A program made the translations under genes and the position numbers. From an uncultured Prevotellaceae bacterium (GTDB taxonomy: Bacteria > Bacteroidota > Bacteroidia > Bacteroidales > Muribaculaceae): 64,000 nt of DNA. The stretch covers positions 1-64,000 of the forward strand of contig CAJLWM010000002.1 in the NCBI GenBank assembly GCA_905210415.1, given 5' to 3'. Below, piece by piece: positions 4,653 to 26,621 of the stretch (positions are counted from its first letter, which is position 1; each line of letters opens with the position of its first letter). A model generated the notes under the pieces. That model was not told the DNA's origin. It made no database searches and saw only the letters and a list, made by a program, of their open reading frames with translations.

Positions 4653-4677
4653 ACCGTAAAAACAAATAATAATAGAA

Positions 4678-5710: not shown

Positions 5711-5750
5711 ACGAAGTATATTAGCGCGGCAGATGCCGCAAATTATATAG

Positions 5751-5792: not shown

Positions 5793-5794
5793 TG

Positions 5795-6487: not shown

Positions 6488-6845
6488 TTGATGCGCCCTC
6501 CTTGTGTCGCTGTATTACGTATTGTGTGATTAATCCTGCCACGCCCATCACCACGAATGTGCTGACGAAAGTGATTACCGAGTAGCTCAAGAGTGATTGG
6601 CTGATAAGGTGCCACGAATTCACCAGGCCTACTGCCGATGGAATGAACAGTGCCGGCATAATGGCAATGAGAAAAACGCTCACCTCGCGTATCTGGCGCA
6701 CTTTTATCACTCCGAAGTGCATGGCAGAGAAGAGCAGCACTATGCCGTAGATGCTGGCTGGTATGGGCAGTGAGATGAAGTAGTGCAGCAGTTCGCCCAC
6801 AAACGATATTGCTGCTATTATAAGAAATTGAAATAGATATTTCAT
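6480..6845 (-). CDS. lrgA: CidA/LrgA-family membrane protein
   Basis: 121 residues with four predicted membrane helices and the LrgA hallmark P-IPASIYGIVLLF near residues 27-40, followed by LFIPSAVGL. It is the small partner of the LrgB protein encoded immediately downstream with overlapping ends. The pair forms a membrane complex in other bacteria. Confidence 0.87.
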   Translation of the reverse strand: MKYLFQFLIIAAISFVGELLHYFISLPIPASIYGIVLLFSAMHFGVIKVRQIREVSVFLIAIMPALFIPSAVGLVNSWHLISQSLLSYSVITFVSTFVVMGVAGLITQYVIQRHKEGASNE

Positions 6846-6900
6846 ACTGTGTAGATTGTAGTTTCTTTTTTTATTCTCTGAAGTTGTTTGATTCAGTGTG

Positions 6901-7482: not shown

Positions 7483-7523
7483 AACCTAAATATATAATTG
7501 TGTGAGAGTGATGGTGCTACTGT

Positions 7524-9050: not shown

Positions 9051-9054
9051 GCGG

Positions 9055-10428: not shown

Positions 10429-10448
10429 ACCGTATATATTTCGGGAGG

Positions 10449-10456
10449 CAAAATTA
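10449..10456 (-). promoter_or_regulatory. -7 box of the SGNH/MBOAT operon
   Basis: TAATTTTG on the minus strand fits TAnnTTTG and is about 20 bp upstream of the GTG start at 10428. It decides against the longer ATG start at 10500. Confidence 0.5.
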
Positions 10457-10614
10457 GTAAAAATACGGCAAACAACGGTTTTATTCCCGCTAAAACACAA
10501 TATTATAATGTAAGATATGCGCTAAGTGGCAGATATATAGTGTCTTGCGGGTGTGTGTTTGTTTTTTACAAATATTTGTCAAAAAATTAAAAACGACATT
10601 TAAACCAAGGTCGG

Positions 10615-10622
10615 TATATTTG
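10615..10622 (+). promoter_or_regulatory. -7 box upstream of the dcu remnant
   Basis: TATATTTG fits TAnnTTTG and lies about 90 bp before the ATG at 10713. No good -33 box at normal spacing. The rest of the gene-free stretch 10429-10712 shows nothing else recognisable. Confidence 0.45.
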
Positions 10623-10712
10623 CAATAAGAAAATCGCAGAGCGATGTTTTTTCGGCTCTGCAAGAGTGTTTTCAAGTAAATAATCAAAATCAACCATAAA
10701 AAACGGAACCTT

Positions 10713-11012
10713 ATGGCTACAGCTTTAATTATATTACAATTTGCCATCGTATTGGCTCTCATTTTCAAAGGTGCCCGTGTGGGTGGCATCGGACTCGGCA
10801 TCTCGCCATTGGCGCTCGTGGCTATGTTCCCGGCTGTAAACGGCTATTTCTTCTTGCCAAACTACCCTACTACGGTGGCTGCGATTAACTTCGACCGCAC
10901 GGGTTCTACGCACATCGGAAAATTTGTTATCAATCATTCCTTTCAATTAGCAGGATTTATTACTACCTTTGTATCCATAGGTGTGGGATACTTGATTATC
11001 CAATTCCTATAA
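10713..11012 (+). pseudogene. Anaerobic C4-dicarboxylate transporter (Dcu family), large internal in-frame deletion
   Basis: Only 99 residues where Dcu antiporters have about 430-450. Residues 1-29 match the Dcu N-terminus (ALIFKGARVGGIGLG). From about residue 31 the sequence is the Dcu C-terminus: MFPAVNGYFFLPNYPTTVAA, INFDRTGSTHIGK, then VINHSFQLAGF. Roughly 340 residues of the transport core are missing while the frame is kept. In Bacteroidales this transporter exchanges aspartate or fumarate for succinate and sits beside aspA, as here. The remnant cannot be a working antiporter. It is either a real deletion in this strain or a collapsed assembly. Confidence 0.8.
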
Positions 11013-11110
11013 GTGTAATGCGCTCGTTGGAGAAAGATGTCTAACGGGCGCGTTATAAACCATTTGCAAACACATAATAAACCTAAACTGAACAAACTTT
11101 AAAATCCGAA

Positions 11111-12367
11111 ATGAAAAACCATTTCCTACGACGTGCTATGCTGCTATTGGCAGCGATGCCAATTTTAGCCACGGCGCAAGATGCCACCTGTAAGCCAAGT
11201 GGCGACGATAGCGACTTGAAATCGCTGTATGAGATCGTGTCAAAACATGAGCAGAAGAGCAAGGCTCTAAACTTCTTTATCAATTTTAGTGGTGGATATC
11301 AGGTGCTTAACGACTCGCGCGAAAGCGGATGGTCGTCGCGCTTGCACAACCGAAGCCTTAGCCTGGAGATGTCGGGCTGGGTGACCGACAACATCTATTA
11401 CCGTCTGCGCCACCACCTGAATAGGCCAAACGACATTCCTGGCTATGATGGATTCGGCAAAGCCACCGACTATATGATGGTGCGCTGGAGATTCAACGAT
11501 CATTGGGCTATTGAAGTGGGCAAGAAATGCCAAGCCCTCGGCGCATTTGAGTTCGACGAGAATCCGCTATATGTATATCAATATTCCGATATAGAGTATA
11601 ATCTGGATAGCCCTCAAGCCGCCATCAATCTGGTGTATAACGTTAATCCCGACCACCAATTCACTGCCGAGGTGAGCAACACCTACAGCGGCAAGTTTGA
11701 GAAGGAATTCGGTGAAAACGCATGGCTCACCACAGGGCGATATGTAGATGATGCCACTTCTGGCGAGAAGAAGCTTGAGATGGAGTTGCTCGAGAAAATT
11801 AATCATCCGCTCACATATGCTGTGGGCTGGAACGGATCGTTTTTCGACGGGTTGCTCGAAAACCACTGGTCGTATATGCACCGCGCCCAAGCCAAGCACA
11901 AGTATAGCCGATTTGTTCGCCTTGGTCAGAAGTTGAATTTCAGCAGATTGCAGTGGTATGTCGACTATAATATGACATACGACGACCTCGATAGAATGAA
12001 GATTGCCAGTGGCGAAATCCGCGACGTGATGAGTTCGCCAGAAGAGAATGTCTACCTTGGCAAGGTGCGTTATCAAGGCATTGTGAGCAAGATGAATTGG
12101 CAATTTGCCTCAGCGTGGAACTTGGTGCTCAAGGGCACGTATGAAACGGCAAGCGTCACCAAGTCGGAGCAATTCAAAAACTACCGCAAGGCGTATGGCT
12201 ATGTGGGCAGCGTGGAGTATTATCCTGCTATGAAGCAGAAGCAAGACCTTCGCCTATTCCTCTCGTATATGGGCAGAAAATACCAATATAACAAGGCAAG
12301 CCAGTTGGTCGACTACAACACCAACTGTGTGGAGATAGGCTTGATGTATCGAATGAAGATATATTAA
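11111..12367 (+). CDS. Outer-membrane porin-like beta-barrel (OprO/P type)
   Basis: 418 residues with a signal peptide (about 1-22, ending ILATAQ) followed by alternating aromatic and polar beta-strand segments and ending in an aromatic residue (MKIY), as barrel proteins do. The pattern (NFSGGYQVLNDSR, LRLRHHLNRP-like turns, WRFNDHWAIEVGKK) resembles phosphate-selective porin O/P family members of Bacteroidetes. It lies between the dcu remnant and aspA and may supply substrate to the aspartate/fumarate module; that link is from position only. Confidence 0.7.
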   Translation: MKNHFLRRAMLLLAAMPILATAQDATCKPSGDDSDLKSLYEIVSKHEQKSKALNFFINFSGGYQVLNDSRESGWSSRLHNRSLSLEMSGWVTDNIYYRLRHHLNRPNDIPGYDGFGKATDYMMVRWRFNDHWAIEVGKKCQALGAFEFDENPLYVYQYSDIEYNLDSPQAAINLVYNVNPDHQFTAEVSNTYSGKFEKEFGENAWLTTGRYVDDATSGEKKLEMELLEKINHPLTYAVGWNGSFFDGLLENHWSYMHRAQAKHKYSRFVRLGQKLNFSRLQWYVDYNMTYDDLDRMKIASGEIRDVMSSPEENVYLGKVRYQGIVSKMNWQFASAWNLVLKGTYETASVTKSEQFKNYRKAYGYVGSVEYYPAMKQKQDLRLFLSYMGRKYQYNKASQLVDYNTNCVEIGLMYRMKIY

Positions 12368-12486
12368 CGCCCCAGACCGGTCTATCGCCAATGTGTGGGC
12401 GAGAATGTGTTTCTCTCATTACTGGTGGCGTAGCCGGTGATAAGATTTTGCAAAGCAGTTTGCTTTTTACAAATTATCGTTCGTTT

Positions 12487-12523
12487 TTTGTAAATATTGT
12501 GTGTAAGTATCGCTATATCTTTG
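12487..12523 (+). promoter_or_regulatory. aspA promoter
   Basis: TATCTTTG at 12516-12523 fits the -7 consensus. A TTTG at 12487-12490 could serve as -33, although the 25-bp spacing is a little long. The leader to the ATG at 12597 is about 70 nt. Confidence 0.5.
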
Positions 12524-12596
12524 CATCAGATAATTGATACATTTTTATTCACACACGAATGAAACGAAATTATTAACCATTTAAACTATATAACTT

Positions 12597-14015
12597 ATGA
12601 CTAACGAAAAGAAATTTAGAGTAGAGTCAGACCTTTTGGGTGAACTCAAGGTTCCAGCTGACGCACTTTATGGTGTACAAACACAGCGTGGTATCAACAA
12701 TTATCATATCTCTCGCAAAAAGATGAGCGACTATCCTGACTTCATCGTTGCTATTGCTTACGTGAAGTTGGCTGCTGCTCAAACCAACCACTCTCTTGGT
12801 GTAATCAACGATGAAATCTCTGGCGCAATGTCAGAAGCTTGCCGCGAACTTATCGATGGCAAGTGGCACGAAAACTTCCCAATCGATATGGTGCAAGGTG
12901 GTGCGGGTACATCGGTAAACATGAATGCCAATGAAGTAATCGCCAACCGTGCCCTCGAAATCATGGGCCACGAAAAGGGCGAATATCAATATTGCTCTCC
13001 AAACGACCACGCAAACTGTGGCCAGAGCACCAACGACGCTTATCCAACATCAATCCGCTTGGCTTTGATCCGCATGAACGTTCACTTGGTGGGCGCTTTG
13101 ACAGGCCTTATCAGCGCATTGCGCTTCAAGGCTGAAGAATATGCCGACACTATCAAGATGGGCCGCACTCAATTGCAAGATGCAGTGCCTATGACCATCG
13201 GACAAGAGTTTAACGCTTATGCCAACACCCTCGAAGAGGAAATCCTCAACTTGGAACGCAACGTGAAACTCCTTCACGAAATCAATATGGGTGGTACTGC
13301 CATCGGTACTGGCTTGAACGCTGTTCCTGGTTTCGCTAAGCTTTGCGCTGCTAACCTCAGCAAGCTCACTGGCGAAAACTTCGTTTCGGCAAGCGACTTG
13401 GTAGAAGCAACTCCTGACACTGGCGCTTATGTAAGCTACTCATCTGCTTTGAAGCGTTTGGCTATCAAGCTTTCTAAGATTTGCAACGACTTGCGTTTGA
13501 TGGCTTCAGGTCCTCGTTGCGGCTTGAACGAAATCAACCTTCCTCCTAAGGCTCCAGGTTCTTCAATCATGCCAGGTAAGGTCAACCCAGTTATCCCAGA
13601 AGTTACCAACCAAGTTTGCTTCAAGGTTATTGGTAATGACACTACCGTAAGCTTCGCTGCTGAGGCTGGTCAATTGGAATTGAACGTGATGGAACCAATT
13701 ATCACCGAAAGTCTGTTTGAAAGTCTGTCTTGGATGAAGAACGTTATCGAGACACTCACAGAAGAATGTATTTTGGGCATCACTGTCAACAAAGAACGTT
13801 GCTATGACATGGTTAAGAATAGCATCGGTATCGTTACCGCTCTTAACCCAATCATTGGCTACAAGAACAGTTCTAAGGTTGCTAAAGAGGCTCACGCTAC
13901 CGGTCGCTCGGTTTACGACATCGTGATTGAAAGTGGCCTTTTGAGCAAGGAAGAACTCGATAAAGCACTCGACCCTAAAGAAATGCTTCACTCACACAAG
14001 TTTACTTTGAAGTAA
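12597..14015 (+). CDS. aspA: Aspartate ammonia-lyase
   Basis: 472 residues of the aspartase/fumarase superfamily, converting L-aspartate to fumarate and ammonia. The signature GSSIMPGKVNPV is at 321-332. The early ALYGVQTQRGINNYHIS, the GGAGTSVNMNANEVIANRA block and QSTNDAYPT fit AspA rather than class II fumarase. Codon use is visibly more biased than in neighbouring genes (for example GAA, AAC and GGT preferred), which suggests high expression. Fumarate made here would feed anaerobic respiration. A strong terminator follows at 14113. Confidence 0.95.
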   Translation: MTNEKKFRVESDLLGELKVPADALYGVQTQRGINNYHISRKKMSDYPDFIVAIAYVKLAAAQTNHSLGVINDEISGAMSEACRELIDGKWHENFPIDMVQGGAGTSVNMNANEVIANRALEIMGHEKGEYQYCSPNDHANCGQSTNDAYPTSIRLALIRMNVHLVGALTGLISALRFKAEEYADTIKMGRTQLQDAVPMTIGQEFNAYANTLEEEILNLERNVKLLHEINMGGTAIGTGLNAVPGFAKLCAANLSKLTGENFVSASDLVEATPDTGAYVSYSSALKRLAIKLSKICNDLRLMASGPRCGLNEINLPPKAPGSSIMPGKVNPVIPEVTNQVCFKVIGNDTTVSFAAEAGQLELNVMEPIITESLFESLSWMKNVIETLTEECILGITVNKERCYDMVKNSIGIVTALNPIIGYKNSSKVAKEAHATGRSVYDIVIESGLLSKEELDKALDPKEMLHSHKFTLK

Positions 14016-14173: not shown

Positions 14174-14612
14174 CTATTCCTCAGCCATCGGAATTCGTGT
14201 TATCCGTAAGCATCCCACCAATCAAATTCTTAAAAAACAAAAATGACCCATATCTCACGCCCCAATGAACCCCAAAAACGGCCACCGATGTAAGGTTATA
14301 AGGTTAAGTGGTTATGTGGTGAAACAGGTTAAACCAAAAGCCCCAACAAGAAACCGCCAACCGCACAAAGCCACCGTTCGGTAAAAGCCACCCACCCCAC
14401 TAAGCCCCCCCCCAAGAAAGATGATACGAGCAAATCGCAATCCATATAAATTGCTCTAACCACCATTCTATAACCACTAACCTTCGGCGAAGCCGACTAA
14501 TAAACAAAAGAGCCCCGGAGGTATCTCCGAGGCAATGCGTTATGGGATAGAAGCCTTTCGGTCGAGACATCAGGTTCGATTTACGATAGCCCGACGGCGG
14601 AGCCGGAACGCC
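14174..14612. other. Gene-free stretch between aspA and res
   Basis: No coding sequence supported. It holds degenerate GGTTA-rich words at about 14293-14335 and their inverse at about 14459-14482, a run of nine C at 14405-14413, and a hairpin at 14513-14536 (AGCCCCGGAG with CTCCGAGGC). The arms of that hairpin resemble the terminator after the porin at 35924. It may act as a terminator, but no T run follows on either strand. Confidence 0.5.
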
Positions 14613-17600
14613 CTAATCTATACCATTAATCAGGTTGTAAAGATTTTCAAACTTATCTACAACGCCATATCTTACTTTTGAGGTTGAAATGCGGTTGAAG
14701 AGTTTCTTGGCACATTCTGTCTTGGCTTTTTCTACACCTCTTAGTTCCATACCATCGAGGGAACCTTTGGTTTCAGCCACGAAGAAAACGTGTCGCACTG
14801 TTCTGTCGTTGAACACAATAGCCCAGTCGGGAGCATAGTTGCCAACCGGCGTAGGAATTTTCAATTTGCGTGGTAACTTAGCATAAACCTGTACCTCAGT
14901 AGCACCTTCAAGAGCCTCTGCAAATGCCTTTTCACCCTCGCTATCAAAAGCAATGTATGGCGTAATGTGCTTCTGAGCCTCAATAACCTTATTGATGTTG
15001 AGTTTTCGCTCGGGCACGAAGATGCTGCTGTCGTACTTGCCGGCAATACGGTTGTAGGAAATATGCTCTACAATCATAGTTGCCTTTTGCTCACGAATAG
15101 TCTTAACCACATTGCGGATAAATTCTTCGGGGTTGTTTTTGAACAGCAGGATTTTATTTTCTATGCCTTGCAGTATCTTTACCACTGAGCGGCGTGTGAG
15201 CCTTGCACCTCGGGCGATGTCGCCCACGAGGTCATAAGGCACGTTTGAAGTGCTTACGTCGGTCAGTTCGCTTGTTGTGGTCTTAGTGCTGCCAAACTCC
15301 GTAACTTTATCGCTGTCCTGTGTGCCTGTAACCTTTACATACTGCAACTTCGTAACAGTAAGATTAGCTCGCAAAGCGGCAACGACTTTCTCGATAAGTT
15401 CGTTGCTATCGTAGTGGACGGTATAGACATACTTGTTGTTTATCTCGTTCCACATTTCCTGGAAACGTTCGTTGTCGAAGTTCTCGTTAAGATTGTTCTC
15501 CGGTGTTGACGTTTCCACCGGCTCAACCATATCATCAAGCACTTTCGGATTGAAGATGCCTGCCACGAGTTTCATAACACCCTCGGAAATCGGTTGCAAT
15601 TTCGGTGGCAATGGAGCGAGTTCTCCCTTGTCTGCCGCTGCAAGGTATGTCGGTGTAAGTCGTCCGTCGTCATCCACATAATCGTTTTGATACAGATAGC
15701 CTATAATAGTAGAAGCCTCGGCAAGAGAAATCTTGTGCTGCTCGCCAGTAGCATCTTTCACGATGCGACCGAGGAAGTAGTCCTGCGAAGCCGCCGTAAC
15801 ACGGTCGCGCAGAGCCTCGCAAGTTTCACGTTGTAGAGCCGAAGTGAAGTCGGCATAACTCTCATTGGCAATCACAGTGAGTACGTTGATAGCGTGAATA
15901 TCATCGCCGAGTGTCTGCTTATCCTGACGCACACCGTCTTTGTCAACGCAAAGACGCAAGCCACGTCCAACCTCTTGCCGCTTGGCAGTAGTGGAGTTGC
16001 TGTGGCGGAGTGTGCATATTTGGAACACATTCGGGTTATCCCAGCCCTCACGCAGAGCGGAGTGCGAGAAAATGAAGCGAGTGGGTTCTTCAAAACTGAG
16101 CAGTCGCTCTTTGTTTTTGAGAATAAGGTCGTAAGCCGAAATGTCGTCAGACATATCCGAGCCACGTTTCACCGAACTGTTCACCGAGCGGCCTTTCTTG
16201 TCGATAGAGAAGTAGCCGCGGTGAGTTTCGTATGGGCGGAACCGACGCAGATACTTGTCGTAGTCGGTATCGAAAACGGTCATATACTTATTGACAAGTC
16301 GGGCGTATTCTTCCTCGAAGATACGCTGAAACTTACCTTTCACCTCATTGCCCTCTTCGTCGTATTGGCGATAGTTCGCCACCTCGTCAATAAAGAAAAG
16401 CGAGAGGCACTTTATTCCACGATTGAAAAGTTCTTTTTCTTTCTCGAAGTGAGCACGGATAGTCTCACGAATCTGCACTCGTTGCATTGCTTCCTCGTTG
16501 CTGTCGCCAATCACTTCGCCGCAGGATATGGTTGTGCCGTTCAGGAACGTAACGTAGCCGCGACCGCGAGGATTAATCTCCGTCACAGTGAAGCCCTCAT
16601 ATTCTGTAAGTCCGCTTTCGGCTCGCAAGTCGTCGCCCACGTCAAATTTCTTGATTTCACGGCGTATTGCTCCAGCAGCGTTGTGAGTTTCGAGTTCGAT
16701 GCGAGCCACCGGCGGGTGCTTTGGAGAGAGTTCGATGCCGTCGAGGTAGAGATAATGACTTGTGCCACGCAAGTTCTTTATCTCGAAGCCTTGCACCTGT
16801 ATTCGCTTCACGAGGCGTTCTTTGTAGGCGTCGTAAGCGTCGAGAGCATATATCGTGTCGTGTTTGGTTTTGTGGGTGGCTGAGTAGTTGAGTGTGAATA
16901 GCGGATTAAACTTTTTGAGTGCAGTCTGTGTGGCCTCGCCCTCCATTTTCTGTGGCTCGTCCATGATGATAATCGGGCGGTTGGCGGCAATAACGTCTAT
17001 CGGACGGCGAGAAGCAAACTCGTCGCGCTTTGAATATATAATTTTACTTTCCTTACTTCTTGCGCCCTCTTTCATTGAAGCGGCAAAGGCTTGGGTGTTG
17101 ATAATCATTACCGAAATGCCGCTGTCCTGCGAGAATTGGTCGAGCTGTTGCAGGTTGCTGCTGTTATACACAAACCAGCGAGCCTTTTTGCCGTAATGCT
17201 CCATGAAGTGGTCTTCGAGCATGCTGAAACTCTTAGCCACGCCCTCACGAATGGCGATGCTTGGTACCACGACGATGAACTTACACCAGCCATAACGGCG
17301 ATTGAGTTCAAACATCGTCTTGATGTAAACGTAAGTCTTACCAGTACCTGTTTCCATCTCGATGTCAAGGCTCACACGTCCTTGTCCTTTGGCGAGTGAG
17401 GTGCTTGGCTGAATGAGTTGAGCCACCTGAATGTCGCGGATATTGTCTAATATCTGCTCATTTGTCAGCACAATCTCGCCATTGCTATAGCCCGAATCTT
17501 CACCCTCAAAGGCGATAGTTTGGGCTCGTTTGCCGAGGTCGATGCGATAGCCCTTTTGTCCTTGCTGAGCCGGCTGCCCTGCAAAGACATTGACGGTATT

Positions 17601-17648
17601 CTCCACCGCCTCGGTTTGGTATTGCTGTATCTTAAACTTAAACTTCAC
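14613..17648 (-). CDS. res: Type III restriction endonuclease Res subunit
   Basis: 1011 residues, GTG start. An N-terminal superfamily 2 translocase has Walker A METGTGKT at 98-105, motif II DEPQ at 230-233, NYSATHK at about 254-260 and a late REGWDNPNVFQ plus QEVGRGLRL (motif VI). The C-terminus carries a PD-(D/E)xK nuclease: PD at 940-941 and E959-T-K961 in AETKG. This is the ATP-dependent cutting subunit that works with Mod. It is the last gene of a six-gene minus-strand operon. The 101-bp gap upstream holds two tandem hairpin repeats. Confidence 0.94.
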   Translation of the reverse strand: MKFKFKIQQYQTEAVENTVNVFAGQPAQQGQKGYRIDLGKRAQTIAFEGEDSGYSNGEIVLTNEQILDNIRDIQVAQLIQPSTSLAKGQGRVSLDIEMETGTGKTYVYIKTMFELNRRYGWCKFIVVVPSIAIREGVAKSFSMLEDHFMEHYGKKARWFVYNSSNLQQLDQFSQDSGISVMIINTQAFAASMKEGARSKESKIIYSKRDEFASRRPIDVIAANRPIIIMDEPQKMEGEATQTALKKFNPLFTLNYSATHKTKHDTIYALDAYDAYKERLVKRIQVQGFEIKNLRGTSHYLYLDGIELSPKHPPVARIELETHNAAGAIRREIKKFDVGDDLRAESGLTEYEGFTVTEINPRGRGYVTFLNGTTISCGEVIGDSNEEAMQRVQIRETIRAHFEKEKELFNRGIKCLSLFFIDEVANYRQYDEEGNEVKGKFQRIFEEEYARLVNKYMTVFDTDYDKYLRRFRPYETHRGYFSIDKKGRSVNSSVKRGSDMSDDISAYDLILKNKERLLSFEEPTRFIFSHSALREGWDNPNVFQICTLRHSNSTTAKRQEVGRGLRLCVDKDGVRQDKQTLGDDIHAINVLTVIANESYADFTSALQRETCEALRDRVTAASQDYFLGRIVKDATGEQHKISLAEASTIIGYLYQNDYVDDDGRLTPTYLAAADKGELAPLPPKLQPISEGVMKLVAGIFNPKVLDDMVEPVETSTPENNLNENFDNERFQEMWNEINNKYVYTVHYDSNELIEKVVAALRANLTVTKLQYVKVTGTQDSDKVTEFGSTKTTTSELTDVSTSNVPYDLVGDIARGARLTRRSVVKILQGIENKILLFKNNPEEFIRNVVKTIREQKATMIVEHISYNRIAGKYDSSIFVPERKLNINKVIEAQKHITPYIAFDSEGEKAFAEALEGATEVQVYAKLPRKLKIPTPVGNYAPDWAIVFNDRTVRHVFFVAETKGSLDGMELRGVEKAKTECAKKLFNRISTSKVRYGVVDKFENLYNLINGID

Positions 17649-17676
17649 GTTATTTCAGTTTTTAGTAAGTTGAAAT

Positions 17677-17750
17677 GTGTACCCGATTTTGCGTTTTCGG
17701 GTACATATTTAGCATAACGTGTACCCGATTTTGCGTTTTCGGGTACATAT
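17677..17750. repeat. Two tandem 32-bp palindromic repeats between fic and res
   Basis: Copies at 17677-17708 and 17719-17750 are identical over 32 bp. Each is a 9-bp perfect inverted repeat, TGTACCCGA and TCGGGTACA, around TTTTGCGTTT. The repeat period is 42 bp, close to four helical turns. The second copy ends on the first base of the Fic stop codon. There is no T tract in the transcribed direction, so these are not ordinary terminators. They could be an operator for res or RNA hairpins that adjust expression between genes. Confidence 0.8.
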
Positions 17751-18631
17751 TAATCGTTTTGTTCATAATAATATGAATAGTCGATACCTTTCATAAACAT
17801 CTCGCGGTCGTTTATCTTGTCAGTCAAAGCATCGGTTATCAGTTCTCTTATTCTTTGAGAATTTACCGGGCTTAGCCGCATTGCTTCCATATAGTCGGTC
17901 TTATCAATTTGGCTCCAGTCAACGCACTTTTTCAGAGAGCGTTTAAGAATTAGATCAAGCCAAATTCGAGTACTTCTGCCATTGCCCTCCATGAATGGGT
18001 GAGCTATGTTCATTTCAACATATTTATCCACTATCTCCTCAAGCGTTGTTTCGGGCATCTTCTCTATTTGTGAAAGTGTCTCACCTAAAAATCTCGAAAC
18101 AGCAAATTGAAATCCTCCCTTTGCGATATTTTTCTGACGTATCTGTCCGGCAAAGTCGTAAAGCCCACCGAACAAAAAAGCATGGATTTGCTGCAATCCT
18201 CGTGCTGTCCCCACTTCTATGGTTTGCAACAGGGTGCTATCCCATAATTGATACGCTTTATCGCGGCTTTTACTGTCTATTTGGTTTTCACCGGTAATTA
18301 ACCAGCGAGCAAAGGCTGATGCGTGTTTGCTTGGAACTGATTCTATCAACCGAAGTAATTCATCTTGAGGTAAACAATCGGTAAGATAACGCTTGCCATC
18401 TGAGGCTACGAGTTTCAGTTGGTTACAAATTGTAACCAACTCATTTCCGGCTTTTGTCAAACGATGCTTCAACACTTTCCAATAATTGCGTGGATTCTTG
18501 CTATCGGTAAGTACGGCTATTACGTCAACCACCGAGAACAACCAGCGATTGCTGTCATAGTCCCATGCCGCACGCACTTCTTGGTCATTAAAGAAGCGTA
18601 TTGATATTTTGTTTTGTTTGTCAGCAGCCAT
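17750..18631 (-). CDS. Fic-family protein with N-terminal Bro-N-like domain
   Basis: 293 residues. Residues about 8-112 look like the Bro-N type seen in phage antirepressor-like proteins ([36 protein letters not shown]). The C-terminal part is Fic: flap YDFAGQIR at about 158-165, [10 protein letters not shown], and the catalytic motif HPFMEGNGR at 211-219, complete for AMP transfer from ATP to a target hydroxyl. The last residues read SYYYEQ; S286 and E290 match the C-terminal inhibitory S-x-x-x-E-(G/N) helix of class III Fic enzymes, with Q in place of G. It starts 6 bp after mod and precedes res. Confidence 0.87.
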
Positions 18632-18637
18632 AAATTT

Positions 18638-20602
18638 TTACAGTATTTTGCAAGTGGTATCGGGGGAGTAGTTGGCAAAGAGTTGGTCGAAGTTATCGAG
18701 CACGTTGTCGTTGGCGGCACTGGCGTCTCGCATCACGAAATACACAGGCTTTTGCTTGGCTATTTCGGTGATAGTGGCTTCGTTAACGTCGCGGTCGAAG
18801 CAAGCCATGAGGTAACCGCCATCAACGCACCACACCTCTTTGCCGGCGATTTCAGTCTTTTCAATCTTAGCCGAGAGTTCGATGCCGAGGTCGAGCATCA
18901 CTTGGAACAGCAAGTCTTCGCCCGTGCGGTCAGGCTTGATGTTGTCGGCAAGAGTGAAAAGATTATTGGCATTGAAGTCATCCGGCGTGTAGTACACATC
19001 TTCCATATTGCTCGAATCGAGTTTCAGCACACGGAAACCGATGTCGAGGTCTTGAGCCATTACCCCGGCTTCTTCTTTCACTTTGCGACCGGCACGGCGT
19101 ATTCGCTCCTTGCCAATTTCGCAAATGTTGTTATAACCTGCTTTGCGAGCCTCACTCTTTTCATCTGTAACTTCCGGGAGTTGTACCATAATGAATTTGC
19201 GATGCCCACCGTCCTCTGCATTGAGTTTCATTACAGCGTGTGCGGTAGTAGCCGAGCCGCTGAAGAAGTCGAGGATAATATCATTCTCTTTTGCAATAGA
19301 ACTTACAAGTCGTTGAGCGACATATACAGGTTTAGGATTATCAAATGGAAGTCCCATAGCTGTGTCAGAACCTCCATAATACAACAAAGAAGAAACTGAC
19401 TCTGTCATATTTTCTTTTAAAAAATACTTTTGACGGGGTTGAGTTGTTTCGTCTTTTCCAAATTCGACTTTACCTAAATATAGAATTTCATCCATCTTTG
19501 AATCTGTAAAACGCCAACCTTTGGATGGTACAGGGCAAGGTTTTCTTGTAATAGGATGTAATAAAGGTCTGTGTGACCGAGTTTCAGGCTTATCAGGAGC
19601 TGCCATTGACACAGGTTGGTATATGCGCCCTTCATCATCAATGAAAGAATATGCTAATTCCCCACCACTTAATTCTGCTTTATGTTTCTTTATCCATTCC
19701 TTATATTCATCACGTACTTTTTCTGTAACTCCACCATATTTCTTAATTAAACCCTCTACTACAGACAGCATTGCTTTTGCATTTTCTTTTTCTTTCAAAA
19801 ACGGAGTTTTAATCGAAAATTCACATATATTTTTGCAAAAAACAAGTATGGATTCATGTTGATAGGCGACGCCAGCAACAATTCCTTTAGGATTTCTTTT
19901 ATCCCAAATAATTGTACCTAAATAATTATGTGCTCCAAATATTTCTTTGCAGATTGATTCTAAGATAGCTACTTCATGCTCATCTATATGAAGGAGAATA
20001 GCCCCATCTTCCGTCAGCAAATCTCTTGCCACTTTCAGACGTGGGTATATCATATTGAGCCAGTCGGTGTGGAAACGACCGTTGCTTTCGGTGTTGCGTT
20101 GCATCGGGTCAACGGTTTGATTGCCTTCATCGTCAAACAAGCCGCTTTGTGCCTCGAAGTCGTCTTTGCCTTGTGTAAAGTCGTCGTTATACACAAAGTC
20201 GTTGCCAGTGTTATATGGTGGGTCGATGTAAATCATTTTCACCTTACCGAGGTAGGTTTCACGCAACACTTTCAGCACATCGAGGTTGTCGCCCTCAATG
20301 TAGAGGTTTTGCGTGTTGTCAAAATCCACACTTTCCTCACGGCACGGGCGGAGCGTTTGCGTGGTGGGTGTGTTGGCGAGGCGTGAAGCGGCACGCTTGT
20401 CGGGCCAGGTAAACTGATAGCGTTCCTCGCCCTCATCGAGCACCTCATTCGACAACTCCGCACGGAGTTTGTCGAAATCTATGGCAAGTTCCGGCTTGCC
20501 CTCTTTATCGAGCCTTTCGGTGACGCACTGCGGAAACAACGCAGCAATCTTCTGCACATTTCCGCCCACCACGTCCCGGCTCATCATCTTTAACTTATCC
20601 AT
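18638..20602 (-). CDS. mod: Type III DNA methyltransferase Mod subunit
   Basis: 654 residues of the beta-class adenine-N6 methyltransferase type: catalytic DPPYNTG at 127-133 comes before the S-adenosylmethionine site FSGSATTAHA at 447-456. The region between (about 230-440) is the target recognition domain. It sets which sequence is methylated and, through Mod, where Res cuts. The DNA for that domain (about 19280-19920) is clearly more A/T rich than the conserved ends, as expected if recognition domains are exchanged between strains. No simple-sequence repeat for phase variation was seen. The product ends 6 bp before fic. Confidence 0.94.
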   Translation of the reverse strand: MDKLKMMSRDVVGGNVQKIAALFPQCVTERLDKEGKPELAIDFDKLRAELSNEVLDEGEERYQFTWPDKRAASRLANTPTTQTLRPCREESVDFDNTQNLYIEGDNLDVLKVLRETYLGKVKMIYIDPPYNTGNDFVYNDDFTQGKDDFEAQSGLFDDEGNQTVDPMQRNTESNGRFHTDWLNMIYPRLKVARDLLTEDGAILLHIDEHEVAILESICKEIFGAHNYLGTIIWDKRNPKGIVAGVAYQHESILVFCKNICEFSIKTPFLKEKENAKAMLSVVEGLIKKYGGVTEKVRDEYKEWIKKHKAELSGGELAYSFIDDEGRIYQPVSMAAPDKPETRSHRPLLHPITRKPCPVPSKGWRFTDSKMDEILYLGKVEFGKDETTQPRQKYFLKENMTESVSSLLYYGGSDTAMGLPFDNPKPVYVAQRLVSSIAKENDIILDFFSGSATTAHAVMKLNAEDGGHRKFIMVQLPEVTDEKSEARKAGYNNICEIGKERIRRAGRKVKEEAGVMAQDLDIGFRVLKLDSSNMEDVYYTPDDFNANNLFTLADNIKPDRTGEDLLFQVMLDLGIELSAKIEKTEIAGKEVWCVDGGYLMACFDRDVNEATITEIAKQKPVYFVMRDASAANDNVLDNFDQLFANYSPDTTCKIL

Positions 20603-20671
20603 ATATAGCTAATGTTTAATTCGTATGAAAACAGTCTTTATTCCACTTATCGATATTTGTATCGACATAAT

Positions 20672-21253
20672 TCATAATATTTTCAAATGCAATCGTTGAT
20701 TGCGTATTATATGTTCGTGATAATTCCGTTGCCAAATTCCCTGTAGGGGCGCAATATTTTGCGCCCGCCCGGTTGAATGAGGACCGGCAATATTTTGCAA
20801 TTGCAATTGACGTTTGACTTCAATGGAACAAGCGGCTTTAAATGAGCGAATAATCACAGCAAGCCTCGAATTAAAATGATTATCATCTCGCAGCTCACCA
20901 TGACGCGGCGGACGCAAACAACCGATATTTTTTTTTGAAGTTTGAATTGCTTGTGTGGGCATTGTATGTGCGGGCGCAAAGTATTGCGCCCCTACCGGCT
21001 TTTGTGCCCCCACATATAACACTATATGGATGTGATTGGGCATCACCACGTAATTCAACAACTCAACATCCTTATGATGATTTGGAATTGACAATAAACA
21101 CTCGTTTATGATATTTCCGATTGTCGATAATTCAAGCTCTCCATTATAAATATTGCCGAAAATATGTCGTTTATCATTGGCACAAATTGTAACGAAATAA
21201 ATTCCGCTATTATAATTATGCCATTCAGCCCGAAATGTATGTCTATCACTCAT
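20672..21253 (-). CDS. REP-associated tyrosine (Y1/HUH) transposase, RAYT
   Basis: 193 residues of the Y1 transposase / RAYT type. The HUH motif is in MPNHIHIV (71-78, H74 and H76) and the nucleophile candidate is Y178 in WQRNYHEHIIRN. Start ATG overlaps the stop of the DUF4391 gene (ATGA), so it is translationally coupled to a restriction operon. Two stretches of the protein (about 82-95 and 157-171) are encoded by a G/C-rich palindrome of about 24 bp present in opposite orientations. These look like REP sequences that the gene has absorbed in frame. Proteins of this family process such hairpins in other genomes. Confidence 0.86.
   Translation of the reverse strand: MSDRHTFRAEWHNYNSGIYFVTICANDKRHIFGNIYNGELELSTIGNIINECLLSIPNHHKDVELLNYVVMPNHIHIVLYVGAQKPVGAQYFAPAHTMPTQAIQTSKKNIGCLRPPRHGELRDDNHFNSRLAVIIRSFKAACSIEVKRQLQLQNIAGPHSTGRAQNIAPLQGIWQRNYHEHIIRNQRLHLKIL
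20743..20768 (-). repeat. REP-like palindrome inside the RAYT gene, right-reading copy
   Basis: GTAGGGGCGCAATATTTTGCGCCCG reads on the plus strand here. The arms GGGCGCAA and TTGCGCCC pair around a short A/T loop. The same sequence with one base changed occurs in inverse orientation at 20971-20995. Confidence 0.7.
20971..20996 (+). repeat. REP-like palindrome inside the RAYT gene, inverse copy
   Basis: CGGGCGCAAAGTATTGCGCCCC followed by TAC. It is the inverse of the palindrome at 20743-20768. Both copies keep the reading frame open. Confidence 0.7.
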
Positions 21254-21852
21254 ATTTCACCTCCTTTCAATCGCTTAATTTCATTATAGAGTTCACGCTT
21301 GCGGCGAGGTTGCTTGGTAGCGTTCATTTGACGCTCCAAGTTAGCTATTTGTTGTTGGAGTTTCTGCTTTTCCTCGTCGATTTTGATTTGTTCGGTGAGC
21401 GAGTTTTCTTGCTCCACCACAAAATTTCCAATCGAGGAAATAAGATAACTCCACACCATGTCAAAATTCAGTCCGATTAATGGCAAAGAAGCATCATTGA
21501 CTTGTAGCCATTCGGATATAAAGAATTTTGTATGGTAAGCCGCAAACCTAACCTTGTCGGCATATCGCAAAGCGAAGATAATTCGCTGCGGAATTGCCTT
21601 TGCAATAAGGACTATAGCCTTGCTGTCGAAGTCGGAACGCTTCAACTCAACATCAACCACGAAGATACCTTTAACTTCCGTTCCCTCTGCCACGGCAGGA
21701 AGTGTGGTTGAAATAATGGCATTGACAAAATCAAGTCTTGCAACGCTTGTATCGATTAACAAGCGTTGAGCGGCTGAAAACTGATATTTCTGATAAATAT
21801 TAGCTTTCGGCAGTGGCTTCTTGACTTCAGTTGATTTTGGCAGTCCGTACAT
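21250..21852 (-). CDS. DUF4391 domain protein
   Basis: 200 residues. The N-terminus GLPKSTEVKKPLPKANIYQKY and the VKGIFVVDVELKR block are typical of DUF4391, a family of unknown biochemical role found beside SNF2-type helicases and type III restriction genes. The last 50 residues are a Lys/Glu-rich coiled coil (about 150-195). It starts 3 bp after the helicase gene and its TGA overlaps the next ATG, so it is firmly inside the operon. Confidence 0.85.
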   Translation of the reverse strand: MYGLPKSTEVKKPLPKANIYQKYQFSAAQRLLIDTSVARLDFVNAIISTTLPAVAEGTEVKGIFVVDVELKRSDFDSKAIVLIAKAIPQRIIFALRYADKVRFAAYHTKFFISEWLQVNDASLPLIGLNFDMVWSYLISSIGNFVVEQENSLTEQIKIDEEKQKLQQQIANLERQMNATKQPRRKRELYNEIKRLKGGEI

Positions 21853-21855
21853 AAT

Positions 21856-24800
21856 TTATCTCACCACTAAAAAGCAAATAAGTTCAAAATCATCAAGGCC
21901 CCGGATTTCGTTTCCGAAAAGCGTGCCCGTGTCGCCGTCGAGGAAAGAGAACAAGTCGGTTTGTTCCTTTACCTTGACGATAGAGGAGATCGCGTCGCCG
22001 AGCAACTTGGAGTAAGTGCCCATGTGTGAACCATCGCGAGTTTCGCCATTGAACTTACGGCAAAGTTCCATAATCGGCTCAGCCTTGCCACGGCAAAGAT
22101 GCCGCAAATGGTCGAGCAGGTCTTTAGGTTCGAGGTGGTTGATAAACACTTGCGAATCCTTTGTGATATATACCAAATAGAATGGGTGCAAGCGGTTCTT
22201 GCGGTCGATGTTCACACTGTTGTTGCGATTCTTCAGCACATAGATTACGCCTTGTGGGTTATCGTCAGAAGCCGGAACAACAGCATGCAGCCCCATTGGG
22301 GTATGCTCGATGTCGTTGTGCTTCTTCATATATTCGAGCAAGTCGAGGCGGAACTCGTTCAAGCCCAAATCCATAATCGAAACGCCGGTGTTCATCTCCT
22401 CGATATCAACCACTTCTTCTTGCAGACGAAGAAGTTGGTCGCGACGATATTTCAAGTCGCCCTTTTCTTCGGCAGAAATCGGGTTGTCATCGCCTGTGGC
22501 AGTGAGCACCGATACTTTCATTCGAGCTTCCACGCGAGCCTTTAGGTCGATATAAGCATCGAGGTCCATATCGGGCCAGTAGTTTACAAGTTGAATGACT
22601 TCGTTTTTCGAGCCGATGCGGTCGATACGTCCGAAACGTTGAATGATACGCACCGGATTCCAGTGTATATCGTAGTTAATGAGATAGTCGCAGTCCTGAA
22701 GGTTTTGACCTTCGGAGATGCAATCGGTGGCAACGAGCACATCAATCTCATTTTTGAGATTGGGATAAAGTGCGTCACGTTCTTTCGACACCGGGGAGAA
22801 AAGAGTAAGCACTTTGTTGAAGTCAAGTTTTTCACGCAATTTCAATGTGCTTCGAGCCTCGATGTCGCCCGAAACGAGTGCAGTGTTGATGCCGTGCTTG
22901 TCGAGAATTACCTGCGAAATATTGTCGTAGATATATTGAGCCGTGTCGGAGAACGCAGTGAAGATAATGATTTTGCGGTTGTTGCCATTGATTGGGTGAG
23001 CGAATTTGTCGCGAATGTCCTGCAACAACTGCTGTAATTTACTGTCGTGCTTCGGCGTGATGTCGGCAAGCATAACGAGCAGCAAATTGAGATTATAGAG
23101 GTCTTTACTGAGATAATCTCGCCATTGCACATAGTCCATATCTTTGAGGTCGATTTTCGACTTCTTGCCGCCGATAAGCACAGCATCCTCGCGGTCATCG
23201 AAATCAAAACCGAAGTTATCACTTTCCTCTGCGGCTATTGAATAGTCATCAACCGACGTATCGCCACCATTGAAATTGTCAATGGTATTGACCGTTTCAG
23301 CGATGAATTTCTTAATCCTTTCGAGCGTGAGGCGGAAAGAGTTCACCGAACTCTCCAAGCGTTTGAGAAGATTGATGCTCATAAGGCGGCGCAAACCACG
23401 TTCTCGTCCGAGGCGTGAAAGGTTGGCATATTCATCGTCCTCGCTCTTGTTGTATTTTGCGGCTTTGCTCGCAAGAATAAAGTCCGATGGCGTGTAGATA
23501 GCGAGGTTAAGCTCGCTCAAAACACTATAGATTTCGTTAAACGTAACGGTTTTGCGGTCGGCAAGATCCGTGAGTTTAGGAGTGCGAGAGATTGGCTTCA
23601 ATCGCTTCGGGAATTTGCCGATATCGGTTGTGTCGTAATATTGTTCGATATGCTTACGCGAGCGAGCAATCGTAACGGAGTCGAGCACTTCAAAGAAATC
23701 AAAACTGAGGCTGTCGAGCAGTGCTTTTGTGGTTCGCTCCTCGGCAGGAAGTTTGCTCCAGCGGTTAAAGGCAGCCTGTGCCTGGCGGAAAATATCGTCA
23801 ATGGAGTTCTCGGTTTTGAGAAGTCCGTTGATGTTCGAGGCATCGCCCTCGTAGGCGAGAGCAAGTTGATTCTTCAAGTCATTAAAGCGGTTGTTGACCG
23901 GCGTTGCCGACAACATCAATACCTTTGTCTTGACTCCGGCTCTAATCACTTTGTTCATCAGTTGGAGATAACGGTTCTCGCGAGGGTTCTCATCGTTCTC
24001 ATCGGTAGTTACTTTGCCACCATTGCGGAAGTTGTGGCTTTCATCTATAACCACGAGGTCGTAGTTGCCCCAGTTGATGCGTTCAAGGTCTGTTCCGTTG
24101 GAATAGCCGTATGAACGCGAAAGGTCGGTGTGATAAAGCACATCATAACGAAGGCGGTCGTTTACCAATGGGTTGTTTACATAGTTGCCACGGTAGGTAA
24201 TCCAGTTGTCAAACAATTTCTTCGGGCATAGTACGAGAACCGATTTGTTGCGGTTTTCGTAATACTTAATGACCGAAAGTGCTGTGAACGTTTTGCCAAG
24301 ACCTACGCTGTCGGCAAGAATGCAGCCGTTAAACTTCTCCAACTTATTGATGATGGCGAGAGCTGCATCACGTTGGAAGTTATAGAGTTTATTCCAGATA
24401 ACGCTCGACTTGAAGCCGGTTGCCTCATTTGGCAGTACGTCTTCCGAAATATCTTCGAGAAATTCGCTGAAGATATTGTAGAGCGTTACGAAATAGATAA
24501 ACTCAGGTGCATTCTCTTTGTAGGCGTTGGTGATGTTGTCGATAACAATTTCTGTAACATCGGTAAAGCGTTCACCGTCGTACCACATTTGGTTGAATGT
24601 GGCGAGAAATTGGTCGGCATTTGGCGATGGAAGCCGCATAATTTGCGGAGCAATATTATTGCCTTTCTCGCAACCGAGTTCTGGAGTTGTAAACTCGTTG
24701 AACGGCATATAAGTGAAAAGGTCCTCGTCGTTTTCCACCGTCAAATTACCATTGACAAAGCCATTGGTAATATTTGATTTGAAGCAAGCCTTTCGGCGAA

Positions 24801-25131
24801 TCCATTCAGCACATTCTCGTGCAATCGCTTTTTGAGATAATTCGTTACGCAGACGAATCTCAAATTCCGAGCCGAAAAGATTGCGTTCACGATTGAGTTT
24901 CGGGATAAAAAACTCACGTTTCTGCTTTGATGTATTTGATTTACTGAACGTTGGAGCAGTGAAAATGAACCGCAGTTCAGCAATGTTTTCGAGTTCTTCT
25001 TTGAGTGCTTGATAAGCATAAATGGAGAACGACGCAGCGGCAATAGAAAGTCGAGAGCCGCTTTGCAAGTCGGCTTTCAGACCATCAACGACTTTCTCTG
25101 TCGTATTGTTATATAATTTGGGTGTCTCCAT
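21856..25131 (-). CDS. SNF2-type superfamily 2 helicase of the defence operon
   Basis: 1091 residues. Helicase motifs are Walker A DSVGLGKT at 274-281, DESH at 363-366, LSATPVNNR at about 411-419, and in the second RecA-like lobe DCISEGQNLQDCD and QRFGRIDRIGS (about 815-845). This is a Swi2/Snf2-like DNA translocase. The first 230 residues resemble the phospholipase-D-like region that precedes many such helicases, but I see no H-x-K motif, so that domain call is weak. It is the first gene of the operon with DUF4391, RAYT, mod, Fic and res. Confidence 0.9.
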   Translation of the reverse strand: METPKLYNNTTEKVVDGLKADLQSGSRLSIAAASFSIYAYQALKEELENIAELRFIFTAPTFSKSNTSKQKREFFIPKLNRERNLFGSEFEIRLRNELSQKAIARECAEWIRRKACFKSNITNGFVNGNLTVENDEDLFTYMPFNEFTTPELGCEKGNNIAPQIMRLPSPNADQFLATFNQMWYDGERFTDVTEIVIDNITNAYKENAPEFIYFVTLYNIFSEFLEDISEDVLPNEATGFKSSVIWNKLYNFQRDAALAIINKLEKFNGCILADSVGLGKTFTALSVIKYYENRNKSVLVLCPKKLFDNWITYRGNYVNNPLVNDRLRYDVLYHTDLSRSYGYSNGTDLERINWGNYDLVVIDESHNFRNGGKVTTDENDENPRENRYLQLMNKVIRAGVKTKVLMLSATPVNNRFNDLKNQLALAYEGDASNINGLLKTENSIDDIFRQAQAAFNRWSKLPAEERTTKALLDSLSFDFFEVLDSVTIARSRKHIEQYYDTTDIGKFPKRLKPISRTPKLTDLADRKTVTFNEIYSVLSELNLAIYTPSDFILASKAAKYNKSEDDEYANLSRLGRERGLRRLMSINLLKRLESSVNSFRLTLERIKKFIAETVNTIDNFNGGDTSVDDYSIAAEESDNFGFDFDDREDAVLIGGKKSKIDLKDMDYVQWRDYLSKDLYNLNLLLVMLADITPKHDSKLQQLLQDIRDKFAHPINGNNRKIIIFTAFSDTAQYIYDNISQVILDKHGINTALVSGDIEARSTLKLREKLDFNKVLTLFSPVSKERDALYPNLKNEIDVLVATDCISEGQNLQDCDYLINYDIHWNPVRIIQRFGRIDRIGSKNEVIQLVNYWPDMDLDAYIDLKARVEARMKVSVLTATGDDNPISAEEKGDLKYRRDQLLRLQEEVVDIEEMNTGVSIMDLGLNEFRLDLLEYMKKHNDIEHTPMGLHAVVPASDDNPQGVIYVLKNRNNSVNIDRKNRLHPFYLVYITKDSQVFINHLEPKDLLDHLRHLCRGKAEPIMELCRKFNGETRDGSHMGTYSKLLGDAISSIVKVKEQTDLFSFLDGDTGTLFGNEIRGLDDFELICFLVVR

Positions 25132-25181: not shown

Positions 25182-25189
25182 CAAAGTTA
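25182..25189 (-). promoter_or_regulatory. -7 box of the defence operon
   Basis: TAACTTTG on the minus strand, about 50 bp upstream of the helicase ATG. This is the only good promoter box found ahead of the six genes. Confidence 0.5.
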
Positions 25190-25781: not shown

Positions 25782-26621
25782 CTATTTGTTGCGGTAGGCC
25801 AATGGCGTCATGCCCGAACGCTGCTTGAAGAAGTTGGTCATCGCGCTTTGGTCGCTGAAACTTAGTTCGTCGGCTATTTCGCCCATTGTCATATCGCTTT
25901 GTTTCAGCAGGTTGCAGATTTCTTTGTAGACGAGTGTGGTGACGTGGTCGTTGACGGTGGTGCCACTGATTTCCTTCACCAGACGAGAAAGATAGACGGA
26001 TGAGATGTTTAGTTTGTTGGCATAGAAGCGTATCTGGCGTTCCTTGCGGAAATTGCGATATAGGTGGTGCAAGAAGATCTCATAAACCTCCTTTTTGTGT
26101 CTTAGGTCGTGAGAAAGGATGCAGGTTTCGTATGGCAGTTCTTCGATGATGAGTCGGAGCACGTTGAACATGCCGTTGATCATTTCAATCTTGTTGATGT
26201 GCTGGTGTCGCACAATGTCGCGTATGAAATGAAATATGTCGATTATGCTCTTGTATTTATCAATAGAGAGGTGATAGCGAGTGGCTTGTGTGGTGAACGA
26301 CTCGTCGATCAAGACGCATTCGGCCTCGAAGTCGCTTGAGATAGCCTGTAGCTTGGCAGTGTCTTTTACGGGAACAATCAGCAATTCGCTGCTTATTAGC
26401 TCTATGCTTTCGGCGCCTTTTTCGTTAAGCAGTATTTTGCAGGAGCCTTGCTTCACAAGCAACAGTTTGGTGAAGAGCGTGCGTTGTTCCACCATTTCTA
26501 TGAAATCTCCACCATCGTCTATGGTAACAGAGAAGTGTGCGGCATAAGCGCCAAATATATCATCGAGATGATATTTGGTGGCAAAATCTTCTAAGTTGTA
26601 GACCGTCTGTTGTTTTATCAT
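25782..26621 (-). CDS. AraC-family transcriptional regulator
   Basis: 279 residues. Residues 1-150 form a cupin-like ligand-sensing half without strong signature; residues about 180-279 are the double helix-turn-helix of AraC/XylS proteins, with IRFYANKLNISSVYLSRLVKE as the first recognition helix region and GEIADELSFSDQSAMTNFFK plus GMTPLAYR as the second. It is divergent from the LD-carboxypeptidase gene, so it may control that operon; nothing in the sequence proves it. Confidence 0.88.
   Translation of the reverse strand: MIKQQTVYNLEDFATKYHLDDIFGAYAAHFSVTIDDGGDFIEMVEQRTLFTKLLLVKQGSCKILLNEKGAESIELISSELLIVPVKDTAKLQAISSDFEAECVLIDESFTTQATRYHLSIDKYKSIIDIFHFIRDIVRHQHINKIEMINGMFNVLRLIIEELPYETCILSHDLRHKKEVYEIFLHHLYRNFRKERQIRFYANKLNISSVYLSRLVKEISGTTVNDHVTTLVYKEICNLLKQSDMTMGEIADELSFSDQSAMTNFFKQRSGMTPLAYRNK

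Follow-up and report, generated by a model that had tools for sequence, protein, structure and literature searches.

Do the six open reading frames (ORFs) that follow one another on the minus strand of contig CAJLWM010000002.1, in the 64,000-nt stretch analysed here (the window) from an uncultured Prevotellaceae bacterium of the Muribaculaceae, form a single defence system? In order, they encode an SNF2-type ATPase, a DUF4391 protein, a RAYT-like protein, a type III methyltransferase (Mod), a Bro-N/Fic fusion and a type III restriction subunit (Res). An earlier note on this DNA described them as a six-gene composite defence operon exceeding a plain type III restriction system. The coordinates and family scans agree with the strand, the gene order and the junctions that it gave, which read 3 bp, a 4-base ATGA overlap, 69, 6 and 101 bp from 5' to 3' along the operon. 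The unit that recurs is smaller, and consists of SNF2, DUF4391, Mod and Res. Architecture and linkage of this four-gene core are well supported. It is rather likely that the locus is a variant of type III restriction, in which SNF2-DUF4391 aids Mod-Res and the genes found in the gaps are exchangeable back-up effectors.

Linkage was examined with an SNF2 profile built from 15 aligned sequences and scanned over genome contigs. The best 80 of 538 confirmed loci were kept (loci are numbered with the prefix L), so close relatives are over-represented among them; core genes were then located by BLAST with the six window proteins, gene layouts and a check for contig ends. The order SNF2, DUF4391, Mod, Res is uniform throughout the 80 loci. 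All four genes were matched in 57 of them, and in the remaining 23 either the sequence ends early or, in L051 and L053, DUF4391 was seen by its hidden Markov model (HMM) profile alone. DUF4391 follows SNF2 in all 75 loci with at least 400 bp beyond SNF2 (73 by BLAST, with a fragment in L013, and L051 and L053 by HMM), Mod follows in all 55 with at least 5 kb, and Res in all 49 with at least 9 kb. A few core genes are split or fragmentary (Mod of L018, L042 and L051; Res of L042; DUF4391 of L013), and core-to-core junctions are tight, with a median of 3 bp in the complete loci. A BLAST relative of the window Fic protein occurs in one of the 80 loci and a relative of RAYT in none, so a six-gene composite is not supported, the four genes alone being fixed.

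The association is also seen from DUF4391. Places matching Pfam PF14335 were gathered from two phylum samples and from genomes chosen for carrying the system (61 places), and flanks of at most about 1.5 kb were checked. In one phylum sample 17 of 296 genomes had the domain above the Pfam cut-off, in the other 25 of 299, each count including a centre genome picked for having DUF4391; none of 14 control genomes had it. Among the 47 full-length places, SNF2 lies in the flank of 45, Mod of 38 and both of 36, and at least one of the two is present at all 47. Nine of the 61 places come from genomes selected because they carry the system; excluding these leaves 38 full-length places, with SNF2 at 37, Mod at 32 and at least one of them at all 38. 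The nine full-length places that lack a flanking Mod comprise L087, L088 and L099, which stop at or near a contig end, L089, L096 and L108, where Mod lies farther along the same contig (L070, L238 and L240), L110, at a contig end in L242, and L122 and L126. Two lack a flanking SNF2: L086, which is the L027 locus and has SNF2 past an insert, and L116, at a contig start. The 14 partial places are divided equally, seven beside SNF2 or Mod and seven without either partner. Together with the counts obtained from SNF2, these results bear out the earlier view that SNF2 and DUF4391 belong with mod and res, and that the locus exceeds a plain type III system.

Whether the two pairs are mostly found apart, a question also raised by the earlier note, depends on the gene from which the loci are viewed. 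Seen from SNF2 or DUF4391, they are together. Res was detected at E 1e-60 or better in 42 of the 296-genome sample, and 14 Res loci were fetched for the absence of a nearby DUF4391 (L226-L237, L244, L245); in 10 of these 14 (L227, L228, L232-L237, L244, L245) Mod-Res stands without the SNF2-DUF4391 pair, and the other four are cut short. Thus, in the loci examined, SNF2-DUF4391 accompanies Mod-Res, while Mod-Res often stands without SNF2-DUF4391. Because Mod-Res also occurs without it, the pair is an add-on module to type III restriction. Near Mod in three of the loci without the pair (L234, L235 and L237) lies a different helicase of only weak similarity (score 94-97); these loci may represent a further type III variant coupled to a helicase. 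L242 (G131:C110) departs from the order of the other loci in having Res upstream of the SNF2-DUF4391 pair and on its strand, which perhaps reflects two adjacent systems or an assembly join.

Order and linkage are conserved across phyla, the four-gene core also being carried by plasmids of Bacillota, Pseudomonadota and Actinomycetota. All ten named records fetched, which had been picked for good SNF2 or DUF4391 matches, contain the four genes in order: the Bacillota records Enterococcus faecalis pJXZ076-85K, Listeria innocua pLIS41 and Lactococcus cremoris pJM1D; Acinetobacter sp. CS-2, Variovorax sp. PDNC026, Escherichia coli pRHB11-C04_3 and Aeromonas media pE31A (Res cut off by the edge of the fetched stretch); Mycolicibacterium vanbaalenii JOB5; and two unverified faecal virome contigs. 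The recurrence of the order across phyla makes the core more than a chance arrangement. Few E. coli genomes have the pRHB11-C04_3 version, a core without cargo at 3234-12562 of CP057895.1: megablast found it in 10 of 5426. A looser set of plasmid-borne SNF2 relatives amounts to 531 records, 94 of which cover at least 80% of the query. In L. cremoris pJM1D (L257, 2102-7464), the SNF2 gene is interrupted by an IS712 element (istA, istB). In the searched literature, DUF4391 turned up in one paper, where a table gives it as one of the domains enriched in host strains that are nonpermissive for TM7x (PMC7784981, excerpt); this may be a lead to the system in Actinomycetota.

Type III enzymes recognize an asymmetric site of 5-6 bp, methylate one strand and cut at head-to-head sites. 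Both window subunits belong to this type by alignment with EcoP15I, and their catalytic motifs are intact. Mod, a methyltransferase of the N6-adenine type (PADLOC MTase_III, 4.2e-227), aligns with EcoP15I Mod (4zcf_A, 5.7e-81) and has DPPY at 127 and DFFSGS (FxGxG-type) at 445; the tested motifs are present in all 58 homologues. Res (PADLOC REase_III, 4.5e-298) combines a helicase with a C-terminal nuclease of the PD-(D/E)XK type, aligns with EcoP15I Res (4zcf_C, 1.7e-69) and has TGTGKT at 100, DEPQ at 230 and ETK at 959, the tested motifs again being found in all 50 homologues. The pattern D-x(9-25)-[EQ]xK occurs within the last 150 amino acids (aa) of the window Res and of 50/50 homologues. 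The ATPase motifs of SNF2 are likewise intact (Walker A GLGKT at 277, DESH at 363, motif VI at 831), and all three are kept in 77/77 homologues. Over residues 178-1090 this protein matches the PADLOC family C3a139, 'HKD+Snf2' (E 4.6e-117), a name of which no mention was found in the searched literature. An HxK motif was not detected in the window SNF2 protein, and HxK-x4-6-D/N was detected in the N-termini of 4 of the 77 homologues; because the motif is missing, the window protein is probably a motor without an HKD nuclease. For DUF4391, an AlphaFold2 model from 48 sequences (mean predicted local distance difference test, pLDDT, 91.6) predicts an alpha/beta N-terminal part followed by long C-terminal helices (coiled coil), and few residues are invariant among these sequences (P5, K16, G127).

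The operon resembles EcoP15I in its aligned Mod and Res with their catalytic motifs, and differs from it by the upstream SNF2 and DUF4391 and by the cargo in the gaps. Class 1 DISARM has the DrmD helicase with the DrmMI methyltransferase, and the likeness lies in an SNF2-type helicase tied to a methyltransferase of the N6-adenine type. The best NCBIfam match of the window SNF2 is DrmD (NF038317), at 143.7 bits far under the cut-off of 610. Among the PADLOC families listed for the six genes and the AraC-type neighbour (25 of 41 for SNF2, 25 of 30 for Mod), DrmB and DrmC are absent and DrmA matches only in part, inside the SNF2 helicase; instead, the window has a type III Res. BREX-related BR/Hma systems, as described in excerpts of PMC12839542, share an SNF2-family helicase and an N6 methyltransferase, with back-up effectors in the core locus. 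They are built round a DUF499 ATPase (PMC12839542, excerpt), and Pfam, run on the six genes and a single neighbour, gave no DUF499. Type-2 BR has an HKD nuclease on its helicase (PMC12839542, excerpt), unlike the window SNF2, which is without that motif.

Distance matrices compared for 46 loci with four near-complete genes gave correlations of 0.84 for SNF2-DUF4391, 0.84 for Mod-Res, 0.88 for DUF4391-Res, 0.76 for SNF2-Res, 0.74 for DUF4391-Mod and 0.64 for SNF2-Mod (0/2000 permutations in each case). Between L016 and L019, SNF2 is 98% and DUF4391 85% identical, yet Mod is 38% and Res 45% identical; the SNF2-DUF4391 and Mod-Res halves are therefore exchangeable as blocks. Within Mod, the centre diverges: in six close pairs, which are not independent of one another, the outer 50-column blocks are mostly 70-100% identical and the central blocks 0-30%, one pair also diverging in the first block. 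Such a pattern would be expected if target recognition is swapped.

Further genes often sit between those of the core. Extra ORFs of at least 90 aa were found in 15 of 74 SNF2-DUF4391 gaps, 40 of 61 DUF4391-Mod gaps and 26 of 58 Mod-Res gaps. Of 102 such ORFs, 95 read in the same direction as the operon, and 11 of the 57 complete loci are without cargo. ORFs were called mechanically from the first ATG, GTG or TTG, so that overlaps may be lengthened and false small ORFs are possible. Two kinds of junction are mostly overlaps: 27 of 36 DUF4391-to-insert junctions and 17 of 27 insert-to-Res junctions overlap (median -4 bp for both), other junction kinds having medians of 3 to 12 bp, and the ATGA overlap between DUF4391 and RAYT in the window is of the same type. 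Pfam was run on the two window cargo genes and on 85 of the 88 plus-strand inserts that reach 120 aa. Among the 25 commonest families listed per set, the DUF4391-Mod gap holds DUF4238 (4), AbiGi (4), TIR (2), AAA_21 (2), RloB (1), AbiEi (1) and Fic (1), and the SNF2-DUF4391 and Mod-Res gaps hold Abi_C (6), Schlafen AlbA (5; 6 across all gaps), AAA_14 (5), RhuM (4), YhcG (3), zeta toxin (3) and Fic (2, one being that of the window). The two insert sets match 151 and 166 PADLOC families. As a control, 85 genes were randomly drawn from 314 located 2 kb or more away from the core. They match 34 PADLOC families, with one member each, and among the 25 listed of their 124 Pfam families are metabolic, envelope, TPR and phage-integrase families and none of Abi_C, Schlafen AlbA, AbiGi, DUF4238, RhuM, YhcG, zeta toxin or TIR.

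Cargo turns over fast. Of 41 pairs of loci with any cargo whose SNF2 is at least 85% identical, and which again are not mutually independent, 37 have no cargo cluster in common; the same is true of 618 of the 635 pairs below 65% identity. The operon of this type on the plasmid Aeromonas media pE31A (L260, 7702-14174) carries three cargo genes. One, an ATP-binding gene of 900 aa, lies between DUF4391 and Mod; the others, for an AAA ATPase and a DUF4276 protein, lie between Mod and Res and resemble PARIS in their make-up. PARIS is reported to respond to the anti-restriction protein Ocr (PMC12839542, excerpt). The cargo also recalls the PDC families found by guilt-by-embedding, an approach credited to Payne et al. 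2024 (PMC12255303 and PMC12988326, excerpts), since Fic matches PDC-S04 and four RhuM inserts match PDC-S05; the difference is that the cargo here lodges in a type III variant of four genes, with turnover in the gaps. Because the PDC families were themselves found by embedding, they give no independent support for a defensive cargo, which is provided by the Abi and toxin families of Pfam. DarTG2 inside a type I restriction locus is an example of such embedding (PMC12255303, excerpt). Restriction-modification (RM) operons have been proposed to couple toxin domains, DOC and RhuM among them, to the restriction of DNA, at loci of the PrrC/HEPN type that differ from the SNF2-DUF4391-Mod-Res core of the window (PMC3710099, excerpt), and back-up effectors are lodged in BREX loci (PMC12839542, excerpt).

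The Bro-N/Fic protein of the window has a Bro-N head at about residues 1-118 (PF02498, 23.4 bits, just under the cut-off of 25.6) and a Fic domain of the NmFic type at about 117-290 (NCBIfam ProtAdlyltaseNmFic, 273.2 bits, cut-off 230; structural match to NmFic 5ckl, 1.7e-68). Its catalytic motif HPFMEGNGR at 211 fits HPFx[D/E]GN[G/K]R and is kept in 29/29 aligned sequences. Class III Fic proteins have a C-terminal [S/T]xxxE inhibitory motif; here SYYYE stands at 286, and the motif is kept in 28 of the 29. The protein matches PDC-S04 end to end (2.4e-143), and proteins 99-100% identical to it are present in Muribaculaceae and Sodaliphilus in the protein database, which makes a gut member of the Bacteroidales the probable source. 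Its single BLAST relative among the 80 loci (L003) lies downstream of Res, outside the operon interior. In a sample of 297 genomes, from the family of the Muribaculaceae genome behind L004, a Fic match at E 1e-30 or better was obtained in 85, some to a single domain. The best 20 relatives (57-95% identity) all lie at other loci and none in this operon. Several adjoin type I restriction genes, 44 of the neighbours including Methylase_S (5), N6_Mtase (3), HsdM_N (3) and HSDR_N (2). As the best relatives sit elsewhere, the window Fic is travelling cargo, often near restriction genes. ParE and GyrB are targets of some other Fic proteins, a fraction of those assayed acting on them (PMC7479194, excerpt).

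The Bro-N head is also found on other proteins. It is common to the PDC-S13 protein of L245 (4039-4872, E 9e-23), whose C-terminal domain is unlike Fic, and to 11 further proteins (L246-L256) with C-terminal parts like that of L245, one of them over a short stretch. Its similarity to the four RhuM inserts of the same Mod-Res gap is weak (E 1e-5 to 8.4e-5). A common Bro-N head on differing effectors in the same gap is suggestive of a sensing part, the RhuM similarity being weak.

For the RAYT-like ORF, NF047646 gives 45.9 bits against a cut-off of 80, below the curated threshold, and an NHIH motif is visible in the translation. The frame stops early, and the DNA of 20600-20672, after the stop, reads like the usual RAYT C-terminus in another frame. 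The gene is apparently a decaying one-off passenger, or an assembly error. Features of the operon and its surroundings are collected in Table 1. The earlier note had also given the operon one good promoter: an element (TAACTTTG) that fits the Bacteroidetes -7 type element TAnnTTTG lies ahead of SNF2, but was picked out by eye only. A low-GC run on the minus strand (37024-45526) was considered as a second defence island and ruled out, no PADLOC match being found in it; its genes (HmuY, a TonB-dependent receptor, CobN-like, one unassigned ORF and ExbB-type) probably form a haem or metal uptake cluster.

Table 1. Genes and signals of the operon and its neighbours in the window (feature, position, strand, size, basis or remark).
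SNF2-type ATPase, core 1	21856..25131	-	1091 aa	Pfam SNF2-rel + Helicase_C
DUF4391 protein, core 2	21250..21852	-	200 aa	PF14335 3.2e-29
RAYT-like ORF, cargo in DUF4391-Mod gap	20672..21253	-	193 aa	NF047646 5.2e-12, below cut-off
Type III Mod, core 3	18638..20602	-	654 aa	PF01555 1.4e-32
Bro-N/Fic fusion, cargo in Mod-Res gap	17750..18631	-	293 aa	PF02661 9.9e-11
Type III Res, core 4	14613..17648	-	1011 aa	GTG start; PF19778 6e-30, PF04851
Possible promoter element TAACTTTG	25182..25189	-		by eye; 50 bp ahead of SNF2 start
Possible terminator past Res	14501..14533	-		by eye; GC-rich hairpin, then T-rich run
AraC-type regulator, upstream neighbour	25782..26621			Pfam scan
Aspartate ammonia-lyase-like ORF, beyond operon end	12597..14015	opposite direction to operon		by eye

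How might the parts work together? Mod would mark host DNA at an asymmetric site, and Mod-Res would cut unmarked invading DNA, as EcoP15I does. SNF2-DUF4391 may then be a dedicated motor module working with the Mod-Res complex, with DUF4391 as an adaptor through its C-terminal helices; that it helps Mod-Res is suggested by linkage. The module could travel along DNA, or remodel either DNA or the phage proteins bound to it, and keep restriction working where Mod-Res alone would fail. The gap gene would be a back-up effector, silent while restriction is intact. In the window, Bro-N/Fic would be held off by its own C-terminal inhibitory motif and, once restriction is blocked, would AMPylate a host target (GyrB and ParE are precedents), thereby stopping replication. 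Such a fallback role, already raised by the earlier note, is plausible by analogy: toxin-like effectors are frequent in the gaps, a pattern that Fic would fit, and there are precedents in RM toxins (PMC3710099), DarTG2 (PMC12255303) and BREX effectors (PMC12839542), all three from excerpts.

Several points weigh against this account. The functions proposed for SNF2 and DUF4391 are drawn from linkage and motifs only; a structure model of SNF2 from 15 near relatives reached a pLDDT of 40.9 only, and the predicted fold of DUF4391 had no confident match among PDB structures. Any contact between SNF2-DUF4391 and Mod-Res must, given L016 and L019, tolerate very different partners. Cargo is not needed, since 11 of 57 complete loci are bare, and many inserts match no listed defence family, while a few flank genes likewise match PADLOC defence models. 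The cargo habit is not special to the four-gene variant either, because similar genes are lodged in the Mod-Res gap of plain type III loci (YhcG in L227, the PDC-S13 protein in L245). Cargo may merely be expressed in the gaps without gating by restriction.

Three other accounts share some of this evidence. SNF2-DUF4391 and a plain type III system could be two independent defence systems, kept in one operon only for shared expression and transfer. The Mod-Res loci without the pair (10 of the 14 fetched for that) favour such a separation, as does the near identity of SNF2-DUF4391 in L016 and L019 while Mod-Res changes. However, all 55 SNF2 loci with enough sequence have Mod, the 47 full-length DUF4391 places are all flanked by SNF2, Mod or both, where lone cases would otherwise be expected, and the core junctions are tight, so that we consider independence unlikely; seen from SNF2, the linkage was followed in its closer relatives. 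A chance cluster of six unrelated defence or mobile genes fits RAYT, decayed-looking and unmatched in the 80 loci, for which it holds, and the sporadic occurrence of this type of Fic. For the four core genes it is refuted by the order that recurs wherever sequence suffices, and as an account of the whole it is barely credible.

The embedded genes could also be selfish or addictive passengers that stabilize the operon, rather than back-up effectors tied to restriction. Fast exchange, the 11 of 57 complete loci without cargo and the many other contexts occupied by Fic relatives would suit passengers, but the inserts share the strand of the operon and overlap at their junctions, many come from abortive-infection families, and the AAA ATPase and DUF4276 pair of the Aeromonas plasmid presumably has the make-up of PARIS, a system said to sense Ocr (PMC12839542, excerpt). 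Passengers of this kind seem improbable to us. At the other extreme, the four-gene core might be a plug-in platform that reports restriction status and controls any toxin placed in a gap, the Bro-N head being a possible sensor of the restriction complex; this is a decidedly speculative extension, for which we see little likelihood. The reading retained here, a four-gene type III variant with exchangeable back-up effectors, is a likely one in comparison.

Restriction loci are already known to harbour embedded defence genes. No description of the SNF2-DUF4391-Mod-Res core was found in the searched literature, which did not include Payne et al. 2024. As a signature, DUF4391, a domain of unknown function, now marks the four-gene variant of type III restriction, and a compact version of the core sits on an E. 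coli plasmid, open to immediate experiment. The gaps provide an indexed catalogue of candidate abortive-infection effectors, and these offer a direct test of gating by restriction. If an extra motor does alter what type III enzymes can do, it would bear on the contest between restriction and phage counter-defence.

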